Shown here piece after piece: positions 2-12,005 of a stretch of DNA of 32,193 nucleotides. The translations under genes were made by a program, and so were the position numbers. The DNA is from Gammaproteobacteria bacterium (GTDB taxonomy: Bacteria; Pseudomonadota; Gammaproteobacteria; Steroidobacterales; Rariloculaceae). Where the stretch lies: positions 1 through 32,193 of the forward strand of contig JAOTTJ010000006.1 of assembly GCA_029864465.1 (NCBI GenBank). Reading direction: 5' to 3'. The notes under the pieces were generated by a model. The model made no database searches. It worked only from the letters and a program-made list of their open reading frames with translations, and was not told the origin of the DNA. Within the stretch, counting starts at the first letter, position 1. Every line of letters starts with the position of its first letter.

Positions 2-1249
2 GTGTTGTCGGCCGAGGAAATCGAGCAACTGCGGGCGCAGGCTGAGGCGCTGCTCGCCGAGCTACTTCCACAGCAGGCGCGCCTCGGGGAGCTATCGGCG
101 GCGAACTGGGGTGAGGAGACTTGGGCGGAGTACGAGGCCTCTGCGCGTGCCGGCGATGATGCCTATCTCGCGAATGATTTTCAGGACGCGGTTCCGGCTT
201 ACGCGCGCGCGCTCGAGGTCGGCGAGCTGTTGCTCGCGCGGTCGGTCAGCATCATCGATGCGGCATTACAGGCCGGCAGCGCCGCGCTCGTTGCGGGCAA
301 CGCAGTATTGGCAGCGGAGCAATATCGGATCGTGCTCGAGATCGAGCCCGAGAACACAACGGCCCATCGCGGGCTCGAGCGTGCTGAGCGGCTGCCCGAG
401 GTCTTGCGGCTGACGCGCCAGGGGGAGATCTTCGAGCGCGACGGTGCGCTCGAGGATGCGGCCAGTGCTTTTCGCGATGCGTTAGCGATCGATTCGGAAT
501 GGGATCCTGCGCGCTCGTCGCTCGCGAATGTCGAAAACCGGTTACGAAACCGCAGCTTCGATCAGCTGATGTCGCAGGGGTTCAGCGCACTCGCGCAAGA
601 GGATTTCGACGAGGCGTTGGAACGGTTCACGGCTGCGCTTGCGGCCCGCCCGAGCTCGGAAGAGGCGATGGCGGGTAGACTGCAGGCCGAGCAGGGCCAG
701 CGGCTCGCCCAGATCGCGCTCATCGAAGCCAGGGCGATCGTCGCTGAGGCCACCGAGCGTTGGGCTCGAGCCATCGAGTTCTACGAGAGCGCGCTGGAGA
801 CAGATGCGACGCTCGTGTTCGCACGAGAGGGCCTGGAGAGGGCGCGGCGCAGAGGCGACCTCGACTCGAAGTTGGTTTATCTGCTCGAGAACCCGAATCT
901 GCTCTTCGACGATACCGTTCTGGCCGATGCGCAGGCTTTGCTTGCTGATGCGCGAACTGTTACCGAGGCTGGGCCGCGTCTTACCGAGCAAAGCGCCGAG
1001 CTCGAGCGGCTCCTCCGCTTGGCCTCGACGCCGATCGCGATTGAGCTGCAGTCCGACGAGCGCACCGAGGTCACGGTCTACCGCGTCGGCAAGCTCGGTA
1101 CTTTCGCGCAGATGACGCTCGAGCTGCGGCCTGGGACCTATACGGCCATCGGCAGCCGCGACGGCTATCGCGACGTTCGACAGACGTTCACGATCCTTCC
1201 CGGTAGAACGCTCGAGCCGGTCCGCGTTGAATGTAGGGAGACGATTTGA
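2..1249 (+). CDS. TPR-repeat protein with C-terminal PEGA-like domain (probably 5'-truncated by the window edge)
   Basis: Long ORF with TPR-like helices (e.g. DFQDAVPAYARALEV, DGALEDAASAFRDALAIDSEWDPA, EDFDEALERFTAALAARPSSEEA). C-terminus TEVTVYRVGKLGTFAQMTLELRPGTYTAIGSRDGYRDVRQTFTI is PEGA-like. Stop overlaps the next start (TGATG). Confidence 0.8.
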   Translation: MLSAEEIEQLRAQAEALLAELLPQQARLGELSAANWGEETWAEYEASARAGDDAYLANDFQDAVPAYARALEVGELLLARSVSIIDAALQAGSAALVAGNAVLAAEQYRIVLEIEPENTTAHRGLERAERLPEVLRLTRQGEIFERDGALEDAASAFRDALAIDSEWDPARSSLANVENRLRNRSFDQLMSQGFSALAQEDFDEALERFTAALAARPSSEEAMAGRLQAEQGQRLAQIALIEARAIVAEATERWARAIEFYESALETDATLVFAREGLERARRRGDLDSKLVYLLENPNLLFDDTVLADAQALLADARTVTEAGPRLTEQSAELERLLRLASTPIAIELQSDERTEVTVYRVGKLGTFAQMTLELRPGTYTAIGSRDGYRDVRQTFTILPGRTLEPVRVECRETI

Positions 1250-3681
1250 TGGTCAGCGACGAGTGGATCGTGCACACGCGCGTCGACGATCAGCAGCGCC
1301 GGTTCGCGCGGGAAGCGCTGCCGCTTACGATCGGCGCGGAGTCGAATGCCGACGTTCGACTACAAGATGTCACCGGCTCCGTGCAAATCGGTGAACTGGA
1401 TGGCGCTTTCTTCATTCAGCCGGGTCGTGACACACGCAACCTGCGCATCGACGGCGAGCTCGTCAGAGGCTCACGCTGGCTGCGCGGTGGGGAGACCGTG
1501 GCCCTCGATACCGCTCGGCTCGTTTGCAGGGTCGACGGCGGGCAGCTCACGTTGACGATCGACGGACACGTGACGGGCGGTGATACGGCGCCGCCTGATC
1601 TCGATGAGCTGGCGCGGGAAACTGCGGATATTGGTGCGCTGGAGATCAAGCCGATCGCGTTTCGCCCGCAGGCTGATACCGTGACTGACGCACCGTCAAC
1701 GCGCGCGCGGGCCGCGACGATAGGCGTTGGAAGCGCGTTCGCTGTGCTGGCCGTCCTCGGATGGTTCGCATTTACGGCGAAATCGGTGGAGATTACCGTC
1801 ACGCCGGCACCCGTTGAGCTCAGTCTGCCTGATACGCTCTTTAAGCTGAGATTGACCGATCGGTATCTTCTGCGCTCGGGCTCGCATCGCGTGGCAGCGA
1901 CGCTGCCTGGTTACTATCCGCTCGATACGGAAATCGACGTTGGGTTCTCATCGGATCAATCGTTCGAGCTCGAGCTCGTCAGGCTACCTGGGCTCATCAC
2001 GCTCACGACGATCCCCGACATCGGCGCCGAGGTGCGCGTCGACGGTGAACCGCTCGGCGTCACACCGATCACCGACGCGGAGATTCGGCCGGGCGCCCAT
2101 CGCATCGAGTTCGTCGCGGACCGTTATCTGGCGGAGGTTCGCGAGCTCGATGTGGTCGGCGGCGGCGAGCGGCAGAGCCTCGACGTTGCGTTAACACCCA
2201 ATTGGGCGCCCGTCACGGTTGCAAGCCAGCCGGCTGGCGCTGAGATTCTAGTCGACGGCACGGTGATGGGTGTGACGCCGCTCGACGTGGAGATCACGGC
2301 TGGCCAGCACGATATCGAGCTGCGGCTGCGCGGCTACAACGCCTGGCGAGATTCGATTTCCGTGCTCGCCGACCAGCCGCAGGTGCTGCGGCCGGTCGAG
2401 CTCACGCAGGCTGATGGGCGAATCGAGCTCGTCACTGATCCGGAGGGCGCGGCGGTCAGCGTCAACGGCGAGTTTCGCGGCCAAACTCCGTTAACCTTGC
2501 GGCTCGACCCTGGCAGGCAGCACTCGCTGAGCTTGACGAAGCCGGGCTATGAATCGATTTCGCAGACGTTGTCTGTCGAGGCCGACAGCGGCCGCCGGCT
2601 CGCACTCTCGCTCGTGGCGCAAATCGGCGTCATCGATATCGTCAGTGAGCCGGTCGGGGCGCAGATATTCGTCGACGGTGTCGGCGCTGGAACAACGCCT
2701 CAGCAGCTGACCCTCACGGCGTTGCCGCACGATCTGGAAATTCGCCTCGATGGATACGCTGTCCAGACCCGAGAGATCACTCCGCGTCCAGGCTTTCCAC
2801 AGGAATGGCGTGTCGACCTCGAGCAGCTTGACGCACTGACCGGGTCTGGTTATGCGCGAACAGTGCAGACGGGCCTTGGCCAGGAGCTCAGACTCATTTT
2901 GCCGGGCGAGTTCACGATGGGTTCGTCGCGGCGTGAGCAGGGGCGGCGCACGAACGAGGTATTGCGACCGATTCAGCTCAGCGAGGCGTTCTACCTCGGT
3001 GTGAAGGAGGTCTCCAACGCCGAGTTTCGGGCCTTTGCGGCCGATCACGACTCGGGGAGTTTCTCTGGAGTGAGTCTCAACGACGACGAGCAGCCCGTCG
3101 TGCGCGTGGCTTGGGAACAAGTTGCGCAGTATCTCAACTGGCTCAGCATTCGGGACGGTTTTCAGCCGGTGTACGCAGAGACGAACGGCGTGTGGGCGCC
3201 CGTACGCCCGCTGCGCAGCGGTTACCGGCTACCGACCGAGGCCGAGTGGGCATGGGCAGCTCGATTCGCCGAGCAGGAGCAGCCGCTGGTTTATCCGTGG
3301 GGACTGGAGTTCGACCCTCCGGACCGTCACGGTAACTATGCCGATATTGCGGCTGCCGAATTACTGCCTACGGCACTAGTCACGTATAACGATGATTTCG
3401 CCGTCGCCGCGCCCGTCGGTAGCTTCGAGCCCAACGCCGTCGGTATTTTCGATCTCGGTGGCAACGTCGCCGAATGGGTCCAGGACTACTATGAGATCGG
3501 TAGCAGTGCGACCACGCAGGTGCTCGTCGATCCGCTCGGACCTACCGAGGGGCGGGCGCATGTCGTGCGCGGCTCGAGCTGGCGCAGCGCCACTCTGCCC
3601 GATCTTCGGGTGGCGGCGCGAAATTACAGCACCGAAGCCAGAGAGGACATCGGTTTTCGGATCGCAAGAAACTTGGAATGA
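1249..3681 (+). CDS. FHA-like N-terminus, single TM helix, 4-5 PEGA repeats, C-terminal SUMF1/formylglycine-generating-enzyme-fold domain
   Basis: N-terminal FHA-like LPLTIGAESNADVRLQD; TM IGVGSAFAVLAVLGWFAF; repeated PEGA signatures (GAEVRVDGEPLGVTP, GAEILVDGTVMGVTP, GAAVSVNGEFRGQTP, GAQIFVDGVGAGTTP); SUMF1 motifs (GEFTMGS, YRLPTEAEWAWAAR, DLGGNVAEWVQDYY, VVRGSSWR, IGFRIAR). ATG at 1249 preferred over TTG at 1246. Confidence 0.87.
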   Translation: MVSDEWIVHTRVDDQQRRFAREALPLTIGAESNADVRLQDVTGSVQIGELDGAFFIQPGRDTRNLRIDGELVRGSRWLRGGETVALDTARLVCRVDGGQLTLTIDGHVTGGDTAPPDLDELARETADIGALEIKPIAFRPQADTVTDAPSTRARAATIGVGSAFAVLAVLGWFAFTAKSVEITVTPAPVELSLPDTLFKLRLTDRYLLRSGSHRVAATLPGYYPLDTEIDVGFSSDQSFELELVRLPGLITLTTIPDIGAEVRVDGEPLGVTPITDAEIRPGAHRIEFVADRYLAEVRELDVVGGGERQSLDVALTPNWAPVTVASQPAGAEILVDGTVMGVTPLDVEITAGQHDIELRLRGYNAWRDSISVLADQPQVLRPVELTQADGRIELVTDPEGAAVSVNGEFRGQTPLTLRLDPGRQHSLSLTKPGYESISQTLSVEADSGRRLALSLVAQIGVIDIVSEPVGAQIFVDGVGAGTTPQQLTLTALPHDLEIRLDGYAVQTREITPRPGFPQEWRVDLEQLDALTGSGYARTVQTGLGQELRLILPGEFTMGSSRREQGRRTNEVLRPIQLSEAFYLGVKEVSNAEFRAFAADHDSGSFSGVSLNDDEQPVVRVAWEQVAQYLNWLSIRDGFQPVYAETNGVWAPVRPLRSGYRLPTEAEWAWAARFAEQEQPLVYPWGLEFDPPDRHGNYADIAAAELLPTALVTYNDDFAVAAPVGSFEPNAVGIFDLGGNVAEWVQDYYEIGSSATTQVLVDPLGPTEGRAHVVRGSSWRSATLPDLRVAARNYSTEAREDIGFRIARNLE

Positions 3682-3725: not shown

Positions 3726-3959
3726 ATGCCATTTATGAGCGCAAATCGATGGATGCTCGCCGCGCTGCTATGGGGAGCGCTCGCGCTAGCCGTCTCGGCG
3801 CAGGAGTCGCAGGAGGAGGCGCCGCCGGCCGAGCCTGCGCCGCCGCCGGCCGAGCCTGCGCCGCCGCAGGCCGATGAGGAACGGACTCTCGAGGAGATAT
3901 TCATTCCTAGTGAGGAGATCGGCGCGGACGAGGAAGTCACATTTCCGATCAATATCTAA
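3726..3959 (+). CDS. short secreted or membrane-anchored acidic Pro-rich protein
   Basis: 77 aa with signal-like N-terminus (MLAALLWGALALAVSA) followed by PPAEPAPPPAEPAPPQA and an acidic tail. Lies in the cluster on the same strand. A start at 3735 is also possible. Confidence 0.6.
   Translation: MPFMSANRWMLAALLWGALALAVSAQESQEEAPPAEPAPPPAEPAPPQADEERTLEEIFIPSEEIGADEEVTFPINI
3824..3865 (+). repeat. two perfect copies of a 21-bp tandem repeat (gccggccgagcctgcgccgcc) encoding AEPAPPP units
   Basis: Identical 21-mers at 3824-3844 and 3845-3865. Confidence 0.9.
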
Positions 3960-4011: not shown

Positions 4012-4812
4012 ATGAAGCGTACATTTCCGACAGAGTTTCTCTACCAGGTATTCGCGTTGATCATTGCGGTTATCGTCGTGCACGCTGTCTATGTGACGGT
4101 GGTACGCCCGCGTGCGACCGAGGTGATGGCAGAGCAGACGCTACGCATTCAGGAGGAGGAGAACTACACGGCCGAGCGTTCCATATGGGTCTTGATCCGA
4201 GATTTCGAGCAGGAGTCCTGCTTCGTGCTCATGATATGGGCGTTCTCGATCATGGGGTTCAAGGCGACCACGTCGTTGTCCGAGCGCGCGCTGCTGCAGC
4301 GCGAGCTTATTCCCGTACCGGACGGCGTGCGCATCTTGCCCGAGGACAGTCGCGAATACGCGCGTACGATCCAGGCATTGCCGGATCGCATGCGTGGCAT
4401 GTTGTTGCCACGCGTGTTGCTCTCGTCGCTCGAGCGGTTCGGCTCGACACGCAACGTGCAGGATGTCTCTTCAGTAGCCAATACACTATGCGAGTCGGAA
4501 GGTGAGCGGCTCGAGTCCGAGTTATCGATGATCCGCTACATCGCATGGGCGATCCCGTCAGTCGGGTTTATTGGCACGGTACGCGGTATCGGTGACGCGC
4601 TCGGGCAGGCCCACCGCGCCGTGGATGGCGATATCGCCGGGGTCACGCAGAGTCTGGGCACCGCATTCAACTCGACGTTCATCGCGTTGCTCATATCGAT
4701 TGTCGTCATGTTCCTCGTGCATCAGCTACAGCTTCTGCAGGAGCGTCTCGTGTTCGATACGCAGACCTATATCGATCACAATCTCATTCGCCACATGCAG
4801 GCGCGGGATTAG
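4012..4812 (+). CDS. MotA/TolQ/ExbB-family proton-channel protein
   Basis: N-terminal TM, second TM, cytoplasmic region, then IPSVGFIGTVRGIGDALGQA and LGTAFNSTFIALLISIVVMFLVHQLQLLQE, typical of the MotA/TolQ/ExbB domain. RBS taggag upstream. Confidence 0.9.
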   Translation: MKRTFPTEFLYQVFALIIAVIVVHAVYVTVVRPRATEVMAEQTLRIQEEENYTAERSIWVLIRDFEQESCFVLMIWAFSIMGFKATTSLSERALLQRELIPVPDGVRILPEDSREYARTIQALPDRMRGMLLPRVLLSSLERFGSTRNVQDVSSVANTLCESEGERLESELSMIRYIAWAIPSVGFIGTVRGIGDALGQAHRAVDGDIAGVTQSLGTAFNSTFIALLISIVVMFLVHQLQLLQERLVFDTQTYIDHNLIRHMQARD

Positions 4813-4832: not shown

Positions 4833-6242
4833 ATGTCGACTATCGCCATTGACATCAACGATGCGGGTATCGTTCTTGCTGACGAGTCGGGCATCGTCGC
4901 GGATGAGCCCGGCTATGCCTTCGTTGAAGGCCAGGCGATTCTTACCGGCCGGGACGCCTATGCGAAGGCGCGGCTGCATCCACGCCAGAGCAGCAACCGC
5001 TATTGGGATAGCCTGACGCTCGAGCCGGGGAGTGCGGGCGTCGACGGTGTCGGTAGCGCTGCGGAGCTCGCGTATGCGCAGCTCAAAGCGCTTTGGGAGA
5101 ACTACGGCGGCAACCGTAACGATGCGTTATTGCTCGTTCCAGGTTATTACGGCCGTGATGAGCTCGGTGTATTGCTCGGATTGGCTCATGAATGTGACAT
5201 CCCAGTACGCTCGATGCTGAGCTCGGCGGCCGCAGCCGCAGCTGCCCCGTACCCCGGTCGCCAACTCGTGCACGTCGACGCCGGGTTGCACCGTGTGTCG
5301 GTGACGCCGCTTGCGCAGGGCGAGGATGTCGCGGCCGATATGGAAAGATCGCTCGGCAACACCGGGCTCGCCTCGATTTCGGATCTGCTTGCGAAGCGCG
5401 TTGCGGAGCTCTTCGTGCTCGCGACACGCTTCGATCCGTTTCACAGCGCTGCGAGCGAGCAGCTTGTCTATGATCGCCTGCCGGCGTGGCTCGGCGAACT
5501 CGAACGGCACCCGGACTCAGTCGAGCTCAAGCTGCCGCGCGGCGGCGAGGATTTAACCATCGAAGTCGAAGGCGCGCAGCTCATTGGCGTCATGACGGGT
5601 TTCTACAAAGCTATTGTCCAGCTCATCGCCCAATGTCGAGAGCCCGGTGCGGAGCTCGTCGTGCTGTTGTCCGATCGTCTGGCAAGGATGCCCGGTATTG
5701 TCAGTGAGCTCGAGCGACTCGATGATGCGCTTGTCGTGACGTTGCCTGCCGGGCAGGCTGCGCTTGGCGCTGTGAGTCAGTCAGAGGCGCTCATCGGGGA
5801 TTCAGGCAACGTGCGGCTGCTCAAGCGCATGCCGTGGCGGGAGCCGCCCGCCGAGCCCGCGCCCGCCCGGCGCACTCTGGAGCCCGATGCGCCCGAGCCC
5901 GCACCCGCAGCCTCGACGGCCGACGATCCGGCCAGCCACATCGTCTATCGTGGAATCGCTTACCCCGTGGATTCGAGCGGCATTGTGATCGGCAGGGAAC
6001 CGATACCGCAGCGGCGCACGATCGTACTGAACGGCGGGCAGGGCGGCGTCTCTCGGGCACATTGCGAGCTCGTCAGGCAGAACGGTGAGCTCAAGCTCGT
6101 CGACAGGAGCCGCTTCGGCACGTTCGTGAACGAGAAGCGCATCTCAGGCGAGATCGCGTTGCAGCCGGCGGACGTGATCCGCATCGGCTCACCGGGTGAG
6201 CAGCTCCAGGTCATCCGTATGGAGGCCGCCGATGGCACGTAA
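4833..6242 (+). CDS. actin-like/Hsp70-like ATPase domain fused through a Pro/Ala-rich linker to a C-terminal FHA domain
   Basis: N-terminal MSTIAIDINDAGIVLAD and LVHVDAGLHRVSVTPLAQGE resemble actin/Hsp70 phosphate-binding segments. C-terminal FHA: IVIGREP..GGVSRAHCELV..GELKLVDRSRFGTFVNEKRI. Linker PPAEPAPARRTLEPDAPEPAPAAS. Confidence 0.75.
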   Translation: MSTIAIDINDAGIVLADESGIVADEPGYAFVEGQAILTGRDAYAKARLHPRQSSNRYWDSLTLEPGSAGVDGVGSAAELAYAQLKALWENYGGNRNDALLLVPGYYGRDELGVLLGLAHECDIPVRSMLSSAAAAAAAPYPGRQLVHVDAGLHRVSVTPLAQGEDVAADMERSLGNTGLASISDLLAKRVAELFVLATRFDPFHSAASEQLVYDRLPAWLGELERHPDSVELKLPRGGEDLTIEVEGAQLIGVMTGFYKAIVQLIAQCREPGAELVVLLSDRLARMPGIVSELERLDDALVVTLPAGQAALGAVSQSEALIGDSGNVRLLKRMPWREPPAEPAPARRTLEPDAPEPAPAASTADDPASHIVYRGIAYPVDSSGIVIGREPIPQRRTIVLNGGQGGVSRAHCELVRQNGELKLVDRSRFGTFVNEKRISGEIALQPADVIRIGSPGEQLQVIRMEAADGT

Positions 6243-7323
6243 GCGCCTTAATGTCTTCTCTCTCGCGTTTCTCGACGCAATGACGTGCGGCTTCGGTGCG
6301 GTCATTCTATTTTTCATGATAATCAACGCGAACGTCGATCAACGTCGCACCGTGATCCTCGACGATTTGTCGGCCGAGGTCGATCGCATGGAGCTGAAGG
6401 TTCTCACGGGGCGTAAGAATCTCGTTCAGCTCAAGCAGGACCTGGCCGAGCTCATCGAGCAGTGGGCTGTGCTTCGTGGCATGCGCCAGGAGATCGTCAG
6501 CGAAGTGCAGCAGACCGAGTCCGAATTCAGCATCATGACGGCCGACACGGAGTCGCAGACCGAGATCATCGAGCGGCTGCGTTCCGATCTCGAGCAGCTT
6601 CAGGCTGAAACGGAGCGTTTGTCAGCCGCTAGCATTACTCCGGACGATGCCGGCAATCGAATTCGCAGCTTCATAGGCGACGGCAATCGGCAGTATCTAA
6701 CGGGCTTGCGCATGGGCGGCGAGCGCGTCGTCGTTCTGGTGGATGCGTCCTCGAGCATGCTCGATCGAACGATCGTCAACATCATCAGGCGGCGCAATAT
6801 GCCGCTGCAGCAGCAGATCAATTCGCCGAAGTGGCAGCAGGTCGTCAACACGGTCGACTGGCTGACGACGCAGATTCCGCCCGGGACCCAGTTTCAAGTC
6901 ATCGCGTTCAATGACACGGCCTGGTCGCTCATCGAGGGCACCGACGGGGAGTGGCTTACTGTTCGCGACGGCGCCCAGCTCGAAGAAGCCGTACAGGCAC
7001 TACGCAACATGGCGCCGAGCGGGCCGACAAGCCTGCACATGGCGTTCGAAGCGATGCGCCCACTCGATCCGAAGCCTGACAATATCTATCTGCTCGTCGA
7101 TGGCTTGCCGACGATTGGCGAGGTGATTCCGATCAAGGCCGGCGTGACGGGCCGAGAGCGCATGGGGCATTTCAACCGTGCAGTTCGTGATCTACCCTTC
7201 AACGTGCCCGTTAATATTATCTTGTATGCGATGGAAGGCGATCCACAAGCAGCGCCCGCCTATTGGTGGCTTGCGCTGCGGACCGGCGGATCCATGATGG
7301 CGCCATCGGAGGATTGGCCATGA
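6232..7323 (+). CDS. N-terminal TM, coiled coil and VWA-domain protein (paralogue A)
   Basis: Start ATG 6232 overlaps the previous stop. N-terminal FSLAFLDAMTCGFGAVILFFMIINANV; long heptad-like region; MIDAS VLVDASSSM, SGPTSL and LLVDGLPT. Confidence 0.85.
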   Translation: MARKRLNVFSLAFLDAMTCGFGAVILFFMIINANVDQRRTVILDDLSAEVDRMELKVLTGRKNLVQLKQDLAELIEQWAVLRGMRQEIVSEVQQTESEFSIMTADTESQTEIIERLRSDLEQLQAETERLSAASITPDDAGNRIRSFIGDGNRQYLTGLRMGGERVVVLVDASSSMLDRTIVNIIRRRNMPLQQQINSPKWQQVVNTVDWLTTQIPPGTQFQVIAFNDTAWSLIEGTDGEWLTVRDGAQLEEAVQALRNMAPSGPTSLHMAFEAMRPLDPKPDNIYLLVDGLPTIGEVIPIKAGVTGRERMGHFNRAVRDLPFNVPVNIILYAMEGDPQAAPAYWWLALRTGGSMMAPSEDWP

Positions 7324-8324
7324 GCAAGAAACGCCGCGACACCGAGAGCATGAACTTGTCGTTCCTCGACGTTATCACGTGCGGCTTCGGCGGCATCATC
7401 CTGTTGCTCGTTATAACGAAGATGTTCGAGCCGATCCGACTGGAGGAAAGCCACACCGAGCTCGAGGGGCTCATCACGCGTTACCAGGAGGAGCTCAACG
7501 ACATTCTCGGTGAGACCGATGTCGTGCAACGCGAACGGTTGATGACGGCCGAAAATGTCGAGCAAGACGAAATTCAAATTGCCCAGTTGCAGGAGGAGCT
7601 CGTTCGCATCCGTGCCGCCGTTCTCGCCAGCGAGGACGACGCGAGTGTGTCGTCGGAGCTCGCCGGACAGCTCGCGCAAGCCAAGCAGCGCCTGACCGAA
7701 GAGATGCAGCGGTTGCTCACGGATTACCGGCCTGATCCCGATGAATACATGGTTGGCGGTATTCCGGTCGACAGTGAGTACATCATCTTCATCATCGATA
7801 CGTCGGGCAGCATGCAACGCTATGCCTGGGACCGTGTCCGTCGTCAGATCAGCGAGACGCTTGCTGTCTACCCGCAGGTGCGTGGCATCCAGGTCATGAA
7901 CGACATGGGCGAGTACATGTTCAAGAGCTACCGGAACGAATGGATTCCGGATACGCCGGGTCGGCGCGAGGCAATCAACGATGCGCTCTCGAGCTGGAAT
8001 GCGTTCTCCAACTCGAGCCCCCGTGAGGGTATCCTCGCGGCGATCGAGGCGTTCTATGATCCGACGAAGAAGATCAGCCTCTATGTGTATAGCGATGATT
8101 TCTCTGCCGGGTCGATCAACGCGGTCGTACGCGAGGTAGATCGCCGCAATCTGGCTGGCGCCGACGGCACGCGCAGGGTGCGCATTCACGCCGTTGCGTT
8201 TCCTGTCTACTACGAGGTCGCCAACGGCGAGCTACTGTCCTCGGCCCGGTTCGCGATCTTGATGCGCGAGCTCTGCCAGCGAAACGGCGGAACCTTCGTC
8301 GCGCTGCCCTCGCTCAGACGCTAG
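7320..8324 (+). CDS. N-terminal TM, coiled coil and VWA-domain protein (paralogue B)
   Basis: ATGA overlap with the previous stop. N-terminal MNLSFLDVITCGFGGIILLLVITKMF; coiled-coil stretch; VWA MIDAS FIIDTSGSM. Confidence 0.85.
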   Translation: MSKKRRDTESMNLSFLDVITCGFGGIILLLVITKMFEPIRLEESHTELEGLITRYQEELNDILGETDVVQRERLMTAENVEQDEIQIAQLQEELVRIRAAVLASEDDASVSSELAGQLAQAKQRLTEEMQRLLTDYRPDPDEYMVGGIPVDSEYIIFIIDTSGSMQRYAWDRVRRQISETLAVYPQVRGIQVMNDMGEYMFKSYRNEWIPDTPGRREAINDALSSWNAFSNSSPREGILAAIEAFYDPTKKISLYVYSDDFSAGSINAVVREVDRRNLAGADGTRRVRIHAVAFPVYYEVANGELLSSARFAILMRELCQRNGGTFVALPSLRR

Positions 8325-8545: not shown

Positions 8546-9268
8546 ATGATCAGAAAAATCATTATCACGGGAATTTCAGCAACGATGATGACGAGCGTCG
8601 GCTGGACCGCGGAACAGGACCAGGAGCCGACGAAGGAGCGGATCGGTGTCGCGAGTGGCGCCGTTTTGGGAGGCCTGGCGGGTGGGCCGATCGGTGTCGT
8701 CTTGGGTGCGGCGTTCGGCGGTTGGCTCGGGGACGAGTTCGACGTGCAGCGCCGCGAGCGGGACGACTTCGAGCAGCGCTGGGCGTTGGCCAGCGAAGAG
8801 GTTGCCAATCTCAATGGCCTTGTCCAGGGCAGCGAACGTGAGCTCGAGCGACTCAGGGCCGATTTCAGCCGTGACGCGACGACGATGCGCGAGAAAGTTC
8901 GGGAGGCGCTCGATGTACAGGTGCTTTTCAAGACCGGGGATACGTCTCTGGCCGAGGAGACAGGCAATCGGCTCACACGGCTCGCAGAGCTCGTCGCGGA
9001 CATGGACGGAATGCTGCTGCGTATCGAGGGTCATGCCGACGCGCGTGGTGCTGCGGAGTTCAACGAGCAGCTTTCGGCGCAGCGTGCGGCCACGGTCAGG
9101 GATGTGCTGATTCGGGCCGGCGTGCCGTCGGCACGAATCGTCATCGATGCACTCGGCGAGCGCGAGGCACATGCTGTCGGTGAGGATGTCGACGGCATGG
9201 CGCTCGATCGCCGCGTGCAGCTGACGTTGATCCCGTCAGCCGCCGAAGGCCGGATGGCGCGCGAGTAG
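8546..9268 (+). CDS. OmpA-family protein with glycine-zipper segment (resembles PdsO-type sortase-associated OmpA-like proteins)
   Basis: RBS aaggag at about 8532. Signal-like N-terminus; GAVLGGLAGGPIGVVLGAAFGGWLGDEF glycine zipper; OmpA C-terminal motif LLRIEGHADARGAAEFNEQLSAQRAATVRDVLIRAGV..DALGE. Confidence 0.83.
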   Translation: MIRKIIITGISATMMTSVGWTAEQDQEPTKERIGVASGAVLGGLAGGPIGVVLGAAFGGWLGDEFDVQRRERDDFEQRWALASEEVANLNGLVQGSERELERLRADFSRDATTMREKVREALDVQVLFKTGDTSLAEETGNRLTRLAELVADMDGMLLRIEGHADARGAAEFNEQLSAQRAATVRDVLIRAGVPSARIVIDALGEREAHAVGEDVDGMALDRRVQLTLIPSAAEGRMARE

Positions 9269-9434: not shown

Positions 9435-10043
9435 TCAGCCTGGCGGCTTCGTCGCTTTTACTTCCTTGACAGTATCCCTTTCACTGATTCGTGACTGCCA
9501 GTTGATAACGTTCTTGTAAGGGGATAGGTCAAAGTCAAACATCGGCGACCAGCTACAGACGATAAATAGATAGGCATCGGCGACCGTGAATTTGTCTCCC
9601 AGCAAGTAGTCTCTGTCCTTGAGTTGGGAATCTACGTAGGCGAAGCGACCATTGAGTCGTTGGGTCACGAACCTTCGCATTTCTTCGGGAAGATTCGGAT
9701 TGAAGAAATTGGAAAAGCCCTTGTGTATCTCTGAGTTGATGAAGCCCAGCCATTCGTGCAACCTGGTTCGCTCGATAGTTCCGTTCGGCGGGGCCAGTTC
9801 AGAGTCGGGATACCGGTCAGCGATGTACTGCAATATCGCAACATTCTCCGTTAGCAATTCGCCGTCGTCGAGCTCCAAGACCGGAACATAGCCCTTCGGA
9901 TTGATATCGTTAAGGTGTCGGCCATCTGGGAGGATCCGATCGGTCTTCAAGTTCAATTTCACGAGCTCGAAATCGGCGCCGGCTTCCAGCAAGGCGATGT
10001 GAGACGCGGAAGAACAGGATCCGGGAGAGGTATAAAGTTTCAT
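9435..10043 (-). CDS. glutathione S-transferase
   Basis: MKLYTSPGSCSSASHIALLEAGADFELVKLNL..NPKGYVPVLELDDGELLTENVAILQYIADRYPD: GST N-domain similar to E. coli GstA; C-domain KFTVADAYLFIV. Confidence 0.92.
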   Translation of the reverse strand: MKLYTSPGSCSSASHIALLEAGADFELVKLNLKTDRILPDGRHLNDINPKGYVPVLELDDGELLTENVAILQYIADRYPDSELAPPNGTIERTRLHEWLGFINSEIHKGFSNFFNPNLPEEMRRFVTQRLNGRFAYVDSQLKDRDYLLGDKFTVADAYLFIVCSWSPMFDFDLSPYKNVINWQSRISERDTVKEVKATKPPG

Positions 10044-10176
10044 TCATTTACTCCGCCACGTGCTGAGATGAGCGTCACTCAGCCTCCGTATCGTCGAATT
10101 ATGTGGCCTGAGACGGCGTGTATATAGACTAAACGGCCACGAGCGGACGTACCCTTAATAGAGAACGAGGTTTTTT

Positions 10177-10848
10177 CTAGCGAGAAAGGCCGAGCTGCGT
10201 CAATAAGTTCGGTGCACCGACGCTGTCGCGCAGCCGCGGCACCACGACGACGGGGCAGCCGTTGCTGAAACGCTCGATGCTGAGTGCGGTTTCACTGGCG
10301 GCAACGGGCTGACTTTCCGACTCACTGACAATAATCCCGCATACAGGGATGTCGCGTGCCTTGAGTACCTCGAACGCGGTCAGCGTGTGACTGATCGCGC
10401 CGAGATAGCTGCCGGTCACAAGCAGTGCAGGCACTTCGAGTGCGGCGATCCAGTCGGTCACGGTGTGTTCGTTATCGAGCGGCACGAGAACGCCGCCGAC
10501 GCCTTCGATCAGTGTTGCGCCTCGTCCGGCGACGTTGCGGCAATAGTCGACGAGCTCCGTGTAGGGTAGGGATCGTCCCTCACGCGCTGCCGCCATGTCC
10601 GGCGAGAGGGGCGCTTGGAACCGCCATGGGCTGATCTTATCCAAATGACTGCGATCGAGAGGCCGGCCGAGGGCAGTGAGCAGAACGCCGGAATCGCTCG
10701 CAGCGGCGTCATTCTCGTCGAACCCCGTGACGACGGGTTTGAGCACGTCGACATACGTGCCACGTTCTCGAAGCTGCTCGATCAGCAATCTCGTGACGAA
10801 AGTCTTGCCGACGCCCGTGCCCGATGCCGTGACGAACGTCGTGTTCAT
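10177..10848 (-). CDS. bioD: dethiobiotin synthetase
   Basis: MNTTFVTASGTGVGKTFVTRLL P-loop, LKPVVTG, EGVGGVLVPLD; directly downstream of bioF with ATGA overlap. Confidence 0.93.
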   Translation of the reverse strand: MNTTFVTASGTGVGKTFVTRLLIEQLRERGTYVDVLKPVVTGFDENDAAASDSGVLLTALGRPLDRSHLDKISPWRFQAPLSPDMAAAREGRSLPYTELVDYCRNVAGRGATLIEGVGGVLVPLDNEHTVTDWIAALEVPALLVTGSYLGAISHTLTAFEVLKARDIPVCGIIVSESESQPVAASETALSIERFSNGCPVVVVPRLRDSVGAPNLLTQLGLSR

Positions 10849-12005
10849 AGCCTGGCAAGCACTGCAGTCATTGCCCCGGCCAGTCCCTCGATGTCTTCAG
10901 CTGAATGCGCAGCCGAGAACGTCACGCGCAATCTCGCCGTGCCTTCGGGCACGGTCGGCGGGCGAATCGCGACGACGAGGAAGCCCAGCTCCTCGAGCGC
11001 GGCACTCGCCTGCACGGCACGCTCCGGCGTTCCCAGCACGATCGGGACGATCGGGCTCTGCGGTTCCGGAATCTTTAATGCCGCGGCAAAGGCCGCTGCA
11101 TTAGCCAACGGTTTCGCCACGAGCGCGGGGTCGCTAGCGATGATTTCGAGCGCTTTAGTTGCTGCGGCGACGACACCCGGTGGCAAGCCCGTCGTATAGA
11201 TCAGGCTGCGCGCTCGGTTGCGCAGCAAGTCGGCCACGGCCCGGCTCGTGCACACGTAACCCCCGTAGCTTCCGACGGCTTTTGAGAGCGTGCCCATCTG
11301 CACTGCGATTTCGAGCGGCACGCCGTCAACAAACCCTGAGCCACGACCGTCACCGACTACGCCGAGGCCGTGCGCGTCATCCGTCATGAGCCACGCATCG
11401 TGTCGCCGCGCGCTTGCCAGAAGCGCAGGCAATGGCGCTAGATCGCCGTCCATGCTGAACACGCCCTCGGTCAACACAAGACAGTGGTGGTGTTGCCCGC
11501 GGTGCCCCGCGAGCAGTGCTTCGGCCTGCGCGGCATCGTTGTGCGCGAAACGGAGCACATGGCTTCTGGCGAGCGTAGCACCCGCGAACAAGCAGCTGTG
11601 GCAGTGCTCGTCCATGACGATCAGATCCTCGGATCCGACGAGTGCGGGAATTACGCCGACGTTGGCCAGGTAGCCGCTGCCGAAAACAACGGCATCTTCG
11701 GTGCCCTTGAGATCCGCGAGGCGCCGCTCCAGTGCTGCGTAGAGCGGATGGTTGCCCGTCACGTGCCGTGATGCCCCCGCGCCGGCGCCGAAATCGTGTG
11801 TTGCCCGGCAACTCGCCTCGATCACGTCTGGATGCTGCGATAAGCCGAGATAGTCGTTGCATGCAAACGAGACGAGCTCGTGAGAGCCACGCAATGCATG
11901 GGCTTCGCTCTTGCGGCCCGTCTCGATCAGCGTGCGTCTCAGCTTACGCGTTTCGAGGCTCGCGAGTTTGCCGGTCGCGAAGCGCTGTAAGGAGTCGTCG
12001 CTCAA
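10845..12005 (-). CDS. bioF: 8-amino-7-oxononanoate synthase
   Basis: FACNDYLGLSQHPDV, GSGYLANVGVIPAL, TDDAHGLGVVGDGRGSG, GTLSKAVGSYGGYV (PLP lysine motif). Confidence 0.94.
   Translation of the reverse strand: MSDDSLQRFATGKLASLETRKLRRTLIETGRKSEAHALRGSHELVSFACNDYLGLSQHPDVIEASCRATHDFGAGAGASRHVTGNHPLYAALERRLADLKGTEDAVVFGSGYLANVGVIPALVGSEDLIVMDEHCHSCLFAGATLARSHVLRFAHNDAAQAEALLAGHRGQHHHCLVLTEGVFSMDGDLAPLPALLASARRHDAWLMTDDAHGLGVVGDGRGSGFVDGVPLEIAVQMGTLSKAVGSYGGYVCTSRAVADLLRNRARSLIYTTGLPPGVVAAATKALEIIASDPALVAKPLANAAAFAAALKIPEPQSPIVPIVLGTPERAVQASAALEELGFLVVAIRPPTVPEGTARLRVTFSAAHSAEDIEGLAGAMTAVLARL

Follow-up and report, generated by a model that had tools for sequence, protein, structure and literature searches.

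The window analyzed here, a stretch of 32,193 nucleotides at the start of a gammaproteobacterial contig, carries an operon on its forward strand (Table 1), which includes the genes of two proteins that we refer to as VWA-A and VWA-B. VWA-A is laid out as a short basic N-terminus, a single transmembrane helix with an invariant aspartate, a long helical stalk and a vWA domain, while VWA-B has a putative axle helix paralogous to that of VWA-A, a stalk and a vWA domain that keeps the DTSGS sequence. A transmembrane motif with an aspartate had been noted in both genes by a sequence-only reading of this DNA, and both the motif and its Asp codons are present there. The membrane segment common to the N-termini of VWA-A (MARKRLNVFSLAFLDAMTCGFGAVILFFMII) and VWA-B (MSKKRRDTESMNLSFLDVITCGFGGIILLLVIT) has the form S/A-F-L-D-x-x-x-C-G-F-G, and the two N-termini are clear paralogues by profile-profile comparison (probability 99.5%, E 5e-23). 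When the window's own genome was searched with a degenerate DNA pattern of the motif, only these two sites matched, and a reversed-pattern control gave 0 matches. Both proteins are predicted to have an N-in topology, because the N-terminal side of the helix is basic (net charge +3.0 and +2.4 in VWA-A and VWA-B, respectively) and the far side is acidic (about −1.9).

Table 1. Features of the operon at the start of the window.
Feature	Position	Strand	Evidence and remarks
TPR protein, 5' end lost at contig start	2..1249	+	TPR_2 E 4e-12; synteny
PEGA-repeat and FGE-sulfatase-fold protein, one TM	1246..3681	+	PEGA E 2.5e-47; FGE-sulfatase E 2.3e-39; synteny
Small secreted protein, signal-peptide-like N-terminus	3726..3959	+	Homologues in 65 loci
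MotA/TolQ/ExbB-type channel protein	4012..4812	+	PF01618 E 8e-14
FHA-domain protein, FHA C-terminal	4833..6242	+	FHA E 2e-13; synteny
VWA-A	6232..7323	+	Pfam VWA_2 E 3e-6; ATG at 6232
VWA-A putative axle-helix segment FSLAFLDAMTCGFGAVILFFMII	6256..6324	+	Asp15 codon 6274-6276
VWA-B	7320..8324	+	Pfam VWA E 9e-4, below curated cut-off; ATG at 7320
VWA-B putative axle-helix segment LSFLDVITCGFGGIILLLVIT	7356..7418	+	Asp17 codon 7368-7370

Conservation of the aspartate among homologues had been set beforehand as a point on which the motif was to be judged, and the residue was kept in 85/85 VWA-A and 83/83 VWA-B sequences of our first sets and, among the distinct sequences of the extended set that retain the segment, in 105/105 for VWA-A and 107/107 for VWA-B. 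The counting pattern itself demands the D, so that five matches lacking the motif, all of them fragments missing the N-terminus or broken frames, are the complete list of possible exceptions. Relatives of both proteins have F, L/I and D nearly fixed at positions −2, −1 and 0. Downstream of the aspartate, C at +4 was found in 98/105 VWA-A and 101/107 VWA-B sequences, G at +5 in 105/105 and 93/107, and F at +6 in 76/105 (the remainder having L) and 105/107. The earlier suggestions that the threonine of "TCGFG" is a shared residue and that C-G-F-G is invariant and could define the family were not borne out: the threonine occurs in only 23/105 VWA-A and 7/107 VWA-B sequences, and C-G-F-G is mostly conserved only, giving way to S-G-L-G or S-A-F-A in a single distant clade (family f55), where VWA-A can read FLDIMASGLGA and VWA-B FLDIISSAFAA. 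We rejected CGFG as a family definition on account of this decay. As the distant clade loses CGFG and keeps the Asp, the aspartate is the constrained residue and CGFG is secondary; that clade thus sets the residue under strict constraint apart from the remaining motif.

The channel protein scored well above the curated threshold of PF01618 (51.9 bits, cut-off 22.9), and in profile comparison by hhalign it matched TolQ-like proteins of related genomes (probability 81%, E 1.2e-5). Two hydrophobic segments precede its PF01618 core. Two of its threonines, T189 (GFIGTVRG) and T222 (AFNSTFIAL), were invariant in 45/45 sequences (alignment A3) and align with the threonines of GLFGTVWG and EALVATAMGL in the TolQ-like proteins, which we take to be the pore threonines of ExbB/TolQ. 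The protein is probably a pentamer. A search of PDB sequences with the channel alignment matched no solved structure at E 0.01. The channel protein also has an invariant D64-x-E66-Q67-E68-x-C70 where its second hydrophobic segment begins, and H24 and R32-P33 are invariant around the first.

Linkage between the channel gene and the pair was nearly constant. Among the 63 loci with at least 2.6 kb of DNA upstream of VWA-A, 62 have a MotA/ExbB-like gene there, and in the 63rd (L033) a masked stretch intervenes, with the channel gene beyond it in the same open frame; PF01618 positions likewise placed a channel gene near VWA-A in 20/20 relatives. So that loci were not picked by homology, we also scanned 369 genomes of the same class with a looser DNA pattern for the motif alone, which gave 51 places in 31 genomes (control, 1), mostly tandem pairs ~1.05–1.17 kb apart. 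Twenty-nine of the 31 genomes were opened, of which 27 carry the operon and two have chance FVD motifs. The channel gene adjoins the pair in 25 of these 27 loci, in two of them 3' of VWA-B. Of the two non-adjacent cases, one is at a contig edge, with a channel gene near the end of another contig, and in the other (G672) the pair has no neighboring channel gene and the channel gene is on another contig. The co-occurrence with MotA/TolQ/ExbB genes that the sequence-only reading proposed to check is therefore present, and the opposite outcome that it named, a motif common in genomes without an adjacent channel gene, is not what these loci show. In three loci, L023 (G003:C59), L241 and L242, the channel gene is shifted to the 3' side of VWA-B and is still adjacent.

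No locus contained an ExbD-like ORF (best E 1.9), and the 11 ExbD matches in the window's own genome all lie on other contigs. These results bear on a reading in which the vWA proteins bind the exterior of the ring, as TolA and TonB do, and another protein is the axle. None of the loci offers an ExbD/TolR-type gene for that role, and the helix has no SHLS motif and carries its invariant Asp at an ExbD/MotB-like place, so we consider exterior binding very unlikely, even though vWA transducers with a TolA/TonB-like SHLS helix have been described beside tolQR genes (PMC12204202).

The sequence-only reading had likened the motif to the ExbD/TolR pore helix, and this was supported, with some reservations. 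The aspartate stands at the start of the transmembrane helix and is followed by 16–17 mostly hydrophobic residues, as in ExbD and MotB of related genomes; the proline that precedes the Asp in ExbD/TolR is missing, and no profile score was significant. Pfam searches of VWA-A and VWA-B found no ExbD (PF02472) or MotB_plug (PF13677) match, and hhalign scores of the VWA helices against ExbD and MotB fell within column-shuffle nulls. With VWA-A and the MotB set, which consisted of four sequences only, hhalign placed D on D with a score that was not significant. The positive control, ExbD versus MotB, failed the same test (probability 3%), and because of this the profile test has little power either way. 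This fits a survey of MotAB relatives in which ExbD and TolR were usually below sequence-detection thresholds (PMC12505986). The non-significant profiles, together with the small residues C/G/G that are typical of helix packing, would suit a different explanation, that the Asp and CGFG serve helix packing or membrane insertion only and that the proteins are sensors or anchors that use no ion. We give this explanation little credence, as packing hardly explains a buried, strictly invariant Asp beside a protein of an ion-channel family with invariant pore threonines.

For each of the two proteins, AlphaFold2 predicted a vWA domain at the end of a helical stalk of ~127 residues. In VWA-A (mean pLDDT 84.5), one continuous helix spans residues 8–134, and in VWA-B (mean pLDDT 78), helices span residues 9–103 and 108–135. 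The part of the stalk beyond the membrane, about 100 residues, would be near 15 nm long if each residue adds 0.15 nm. The predicted heads of both proteins matched vWA structures in Foldseek and have the Rossmann-like vWA fold, with the full MIDAS (D-x-S-x-S, T, D) in VWA-A only: as read from the alignment, VWA-A has D171, S173, S175, T266 and D290, and VWA-B has DTSGS and D259 and lacks the usual MIDAS Thr.

The distance from the putative axle Asp to the MIDAS Asp was 134–156 residues in VWA-A and 132–146 in VWA-B, and the two lengths covary between clades (134–136 with 133–137, and 155–156 with 142–145; Spearman 0.67 over 133 pairs, uncorrected for relatedness). ExbD and TolR are homodimers in their known structures, and by that precedent VWA-A and VWA-B could each be a homodimeric axle, in separate motors that share one common ring protein. 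We regard this arrangement as unlikely, since the two genes are adjacent as a pair in essentially every locus and their stalk lengths shift together between clades.

Overall, our best reading of these data is that the VWA-A/VWA-B pair takes the place of ExbD/TolR/MotB, and it is quite likely that the two proteins are the B-subunits, or axle, of a proton-driven 5:2 rotary motor. This is because the conserved Asp of the helix and the nearly constant company of a channel gene make the pair probably the turning axle of an envelope motor. Five copies of the MotA/TolQ/ExbB-type protein would form the ring, and its pore would hold a single helix from each of VWA-A and VWA-B, the two proteins most likely pairing as a heterodimer. 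In each helix, the Asp close to the cytoplasmic end would face the invariant threonines of the ring, and its protonation and release would turn the pair. Beyond the membrane, the vWA heads would reach deep into the periplasm on the stalk of ~100 residues, and there they may bind or pull a partner in the envelope. Points against an axle role are the lack of significant similarity of the helix profiles to ExbD/MotB, the missing ExbD/TolR proline, the channel protein without a PDB match, and the G672 locus.

The other genes of the operon suggest an envelope task for the system, the conserved neighbors being the PEGA-FGE, TPR, small secreted and lipoprotein-like proteins and often the FHA protein. 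The C-terminal part of the PEGA-FGE protein is likely periplasmic. The small secreted protein matched no Pfam family; its C-terminal tail has the form F-x-P-S-E-x-I-x-x-D-x-x-V-x-F-P-x-D/N-I-stop, and the prolines at −4 and −17 were present in all 72 distinct sequences. The FHA gene is accessory, being missing from some relatives, and the N-terminal ~330 residues of its protein look actin/Hsp70-like by eye. The TPR protein of one relative (L082 3-2195) carries a fused protein kinase domain (Pkinase E 6.5e-9), a combination that would agree with the presence of an FHA protein in the operon. Relatives also have, upstream of the TPR gene, a protein of ~400 residues with a lipobox-like N-terminus, with matches in 57 loci (e.g., L093 741-2084 and L100 348-1808) and a gene present in 8/8 loci with enough DNA upstream; it matched no Pfam family, and in the window it would fall before the start of the contig. 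Downstream of the operon are a PdsO-like OmpA-family gene (8546-9268), kept only in close relatives, and, on the minus strand at 9435-12005, genes that read as glutathione S-transferase-like, bioD-like and bioF-like and have no apparent relation to the operon. We rejected membership in the PdsO sortase system via the OmpA gene (116.6 bits, cut-off 152.2; gene in close relatives only) and also membership in a known defense system, for which PADLOC gave weak matches only. A literature search on the operon neighbors by their annotation names found no description of them.

More tentatively, the window may contain most of a machine that spans the envelope and has as many as eight proteins. Its motor would be asymmetric: the axle would be an obligate heterodimer of VWA-A and VWA-B, in which the stalks are of almost constant length and one head is MIDAS-competent while the other is MIDAS-altered, and the cytoplasmic FHA protein would be a possible control. 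The secreted small protein, whose tail is invariant and acidic, would bind as a ligand to the VWA-A head and so connect the motor with the PEGA-FGE protein and the upstream lipoprotein.

Protein searches of 58 related genomes gave matches in 52, and scanning a public genome collection with VWA-B gave 70 loci, mostly from Gammaproteobacteria and Desulfobacterota, plus a Myxococcales MAG, going by the deposited record titles. Among the relatives with the operon is the cultivable Desulfogranum marinum (L100). The system was present in only 15 of 399 genomes that thinly sample the phylum, and its distribution is therefore widespread but patchy. A search of plasmids with VWA-B gave no match. Two genomes have a second, divergent copy of the system (L195 and L196; G028:C132 and G041:C9), whose VWA-A is about 31% identical and which has its own channel, PEGA-FGE and TPR genes.

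Proton motors of the 5:2 type power flagella, Ton/Tol, gliding, type IX secretion and Zorya defense. With ExbD/TolR and its partner ExbB/TolQ, the system shares an N-in single transmembrane helix, an Asp near the cytoplasmic end and a ring partner of the PF01618 family with two threonines; it differs in having no detectable sequence similarity to ExbD/TolR, in lacking P-x-[LI]-D in VWA-A and VWA-B, and in bearing a vWA head on a long stalk where ExbD has a small domain. The start of the VWA helix, D-x-[MV]-T, resembles the [YF]AD[FA][VA]T of MotB in related genomes, and the two hydrophobic segments ahead of the PF01618 core are shared with MotA and ZorA. Unlike MotB and ZorB, however, VWA-A and VWA-B do not themselves carry a peptidoglycan-binding domain of the OmpA type, and the ring protein matches ZorA only weakly (PADLOC E 0.017). 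Type IX secretion likewise has a motor driven by protons, GldL/GldM, whose long shaft lies in the periplasm, beside the FGE-fold protein GldK. The PEGA-FGE protein matches the GldK model (E 1e-30) but falls far short of the model's cut-off; GldM has no vWA head, and no type IX secretion genes were seen among the operon genes.

The closest likeness in the features that we examined is to the TPH-vWA proteins of Williams-Jones et al. (2025, Mol Biol Evol msaf138, PMC12204202, Fig. 4c-d), a second vWA family occurring as heterologous pairs with tolQ and distinct from the SHLS-helix transducers of the same paper. Those pairs have no tolR/exbD and a conserved Asp in a "transpore helix", and in AF3 models with the pentamer their two Asp residues lie within the ring of threonines (PMC12204202). 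Shared with them are the transmembrane-anchored heterologous vWA pairs, the tight co-occurrence with a tolQ-like gene, the Asp of a helix without SHLS motif, and two different tandem vWA genes beside a tolQ-like gene with no tolR/exbD/motB gene. The window fits every TPH-vWA feature examined, the likeness being judged by the features that the paper, whose query sequence is from Idiomarina, describes. The text of that paper makes no mention of PEGA, FGE or FHA neighbors, a secreted small protein or an upstream lipoprotein. An axle role for such pairs is thus already in print (PMC12204202), and the conserved operon around them is the new part. For a widespread type of motor with vWA heads and no ExbD, whose prediction dates only from 2025, the genes conserved beside it provide concrete candidate partners.
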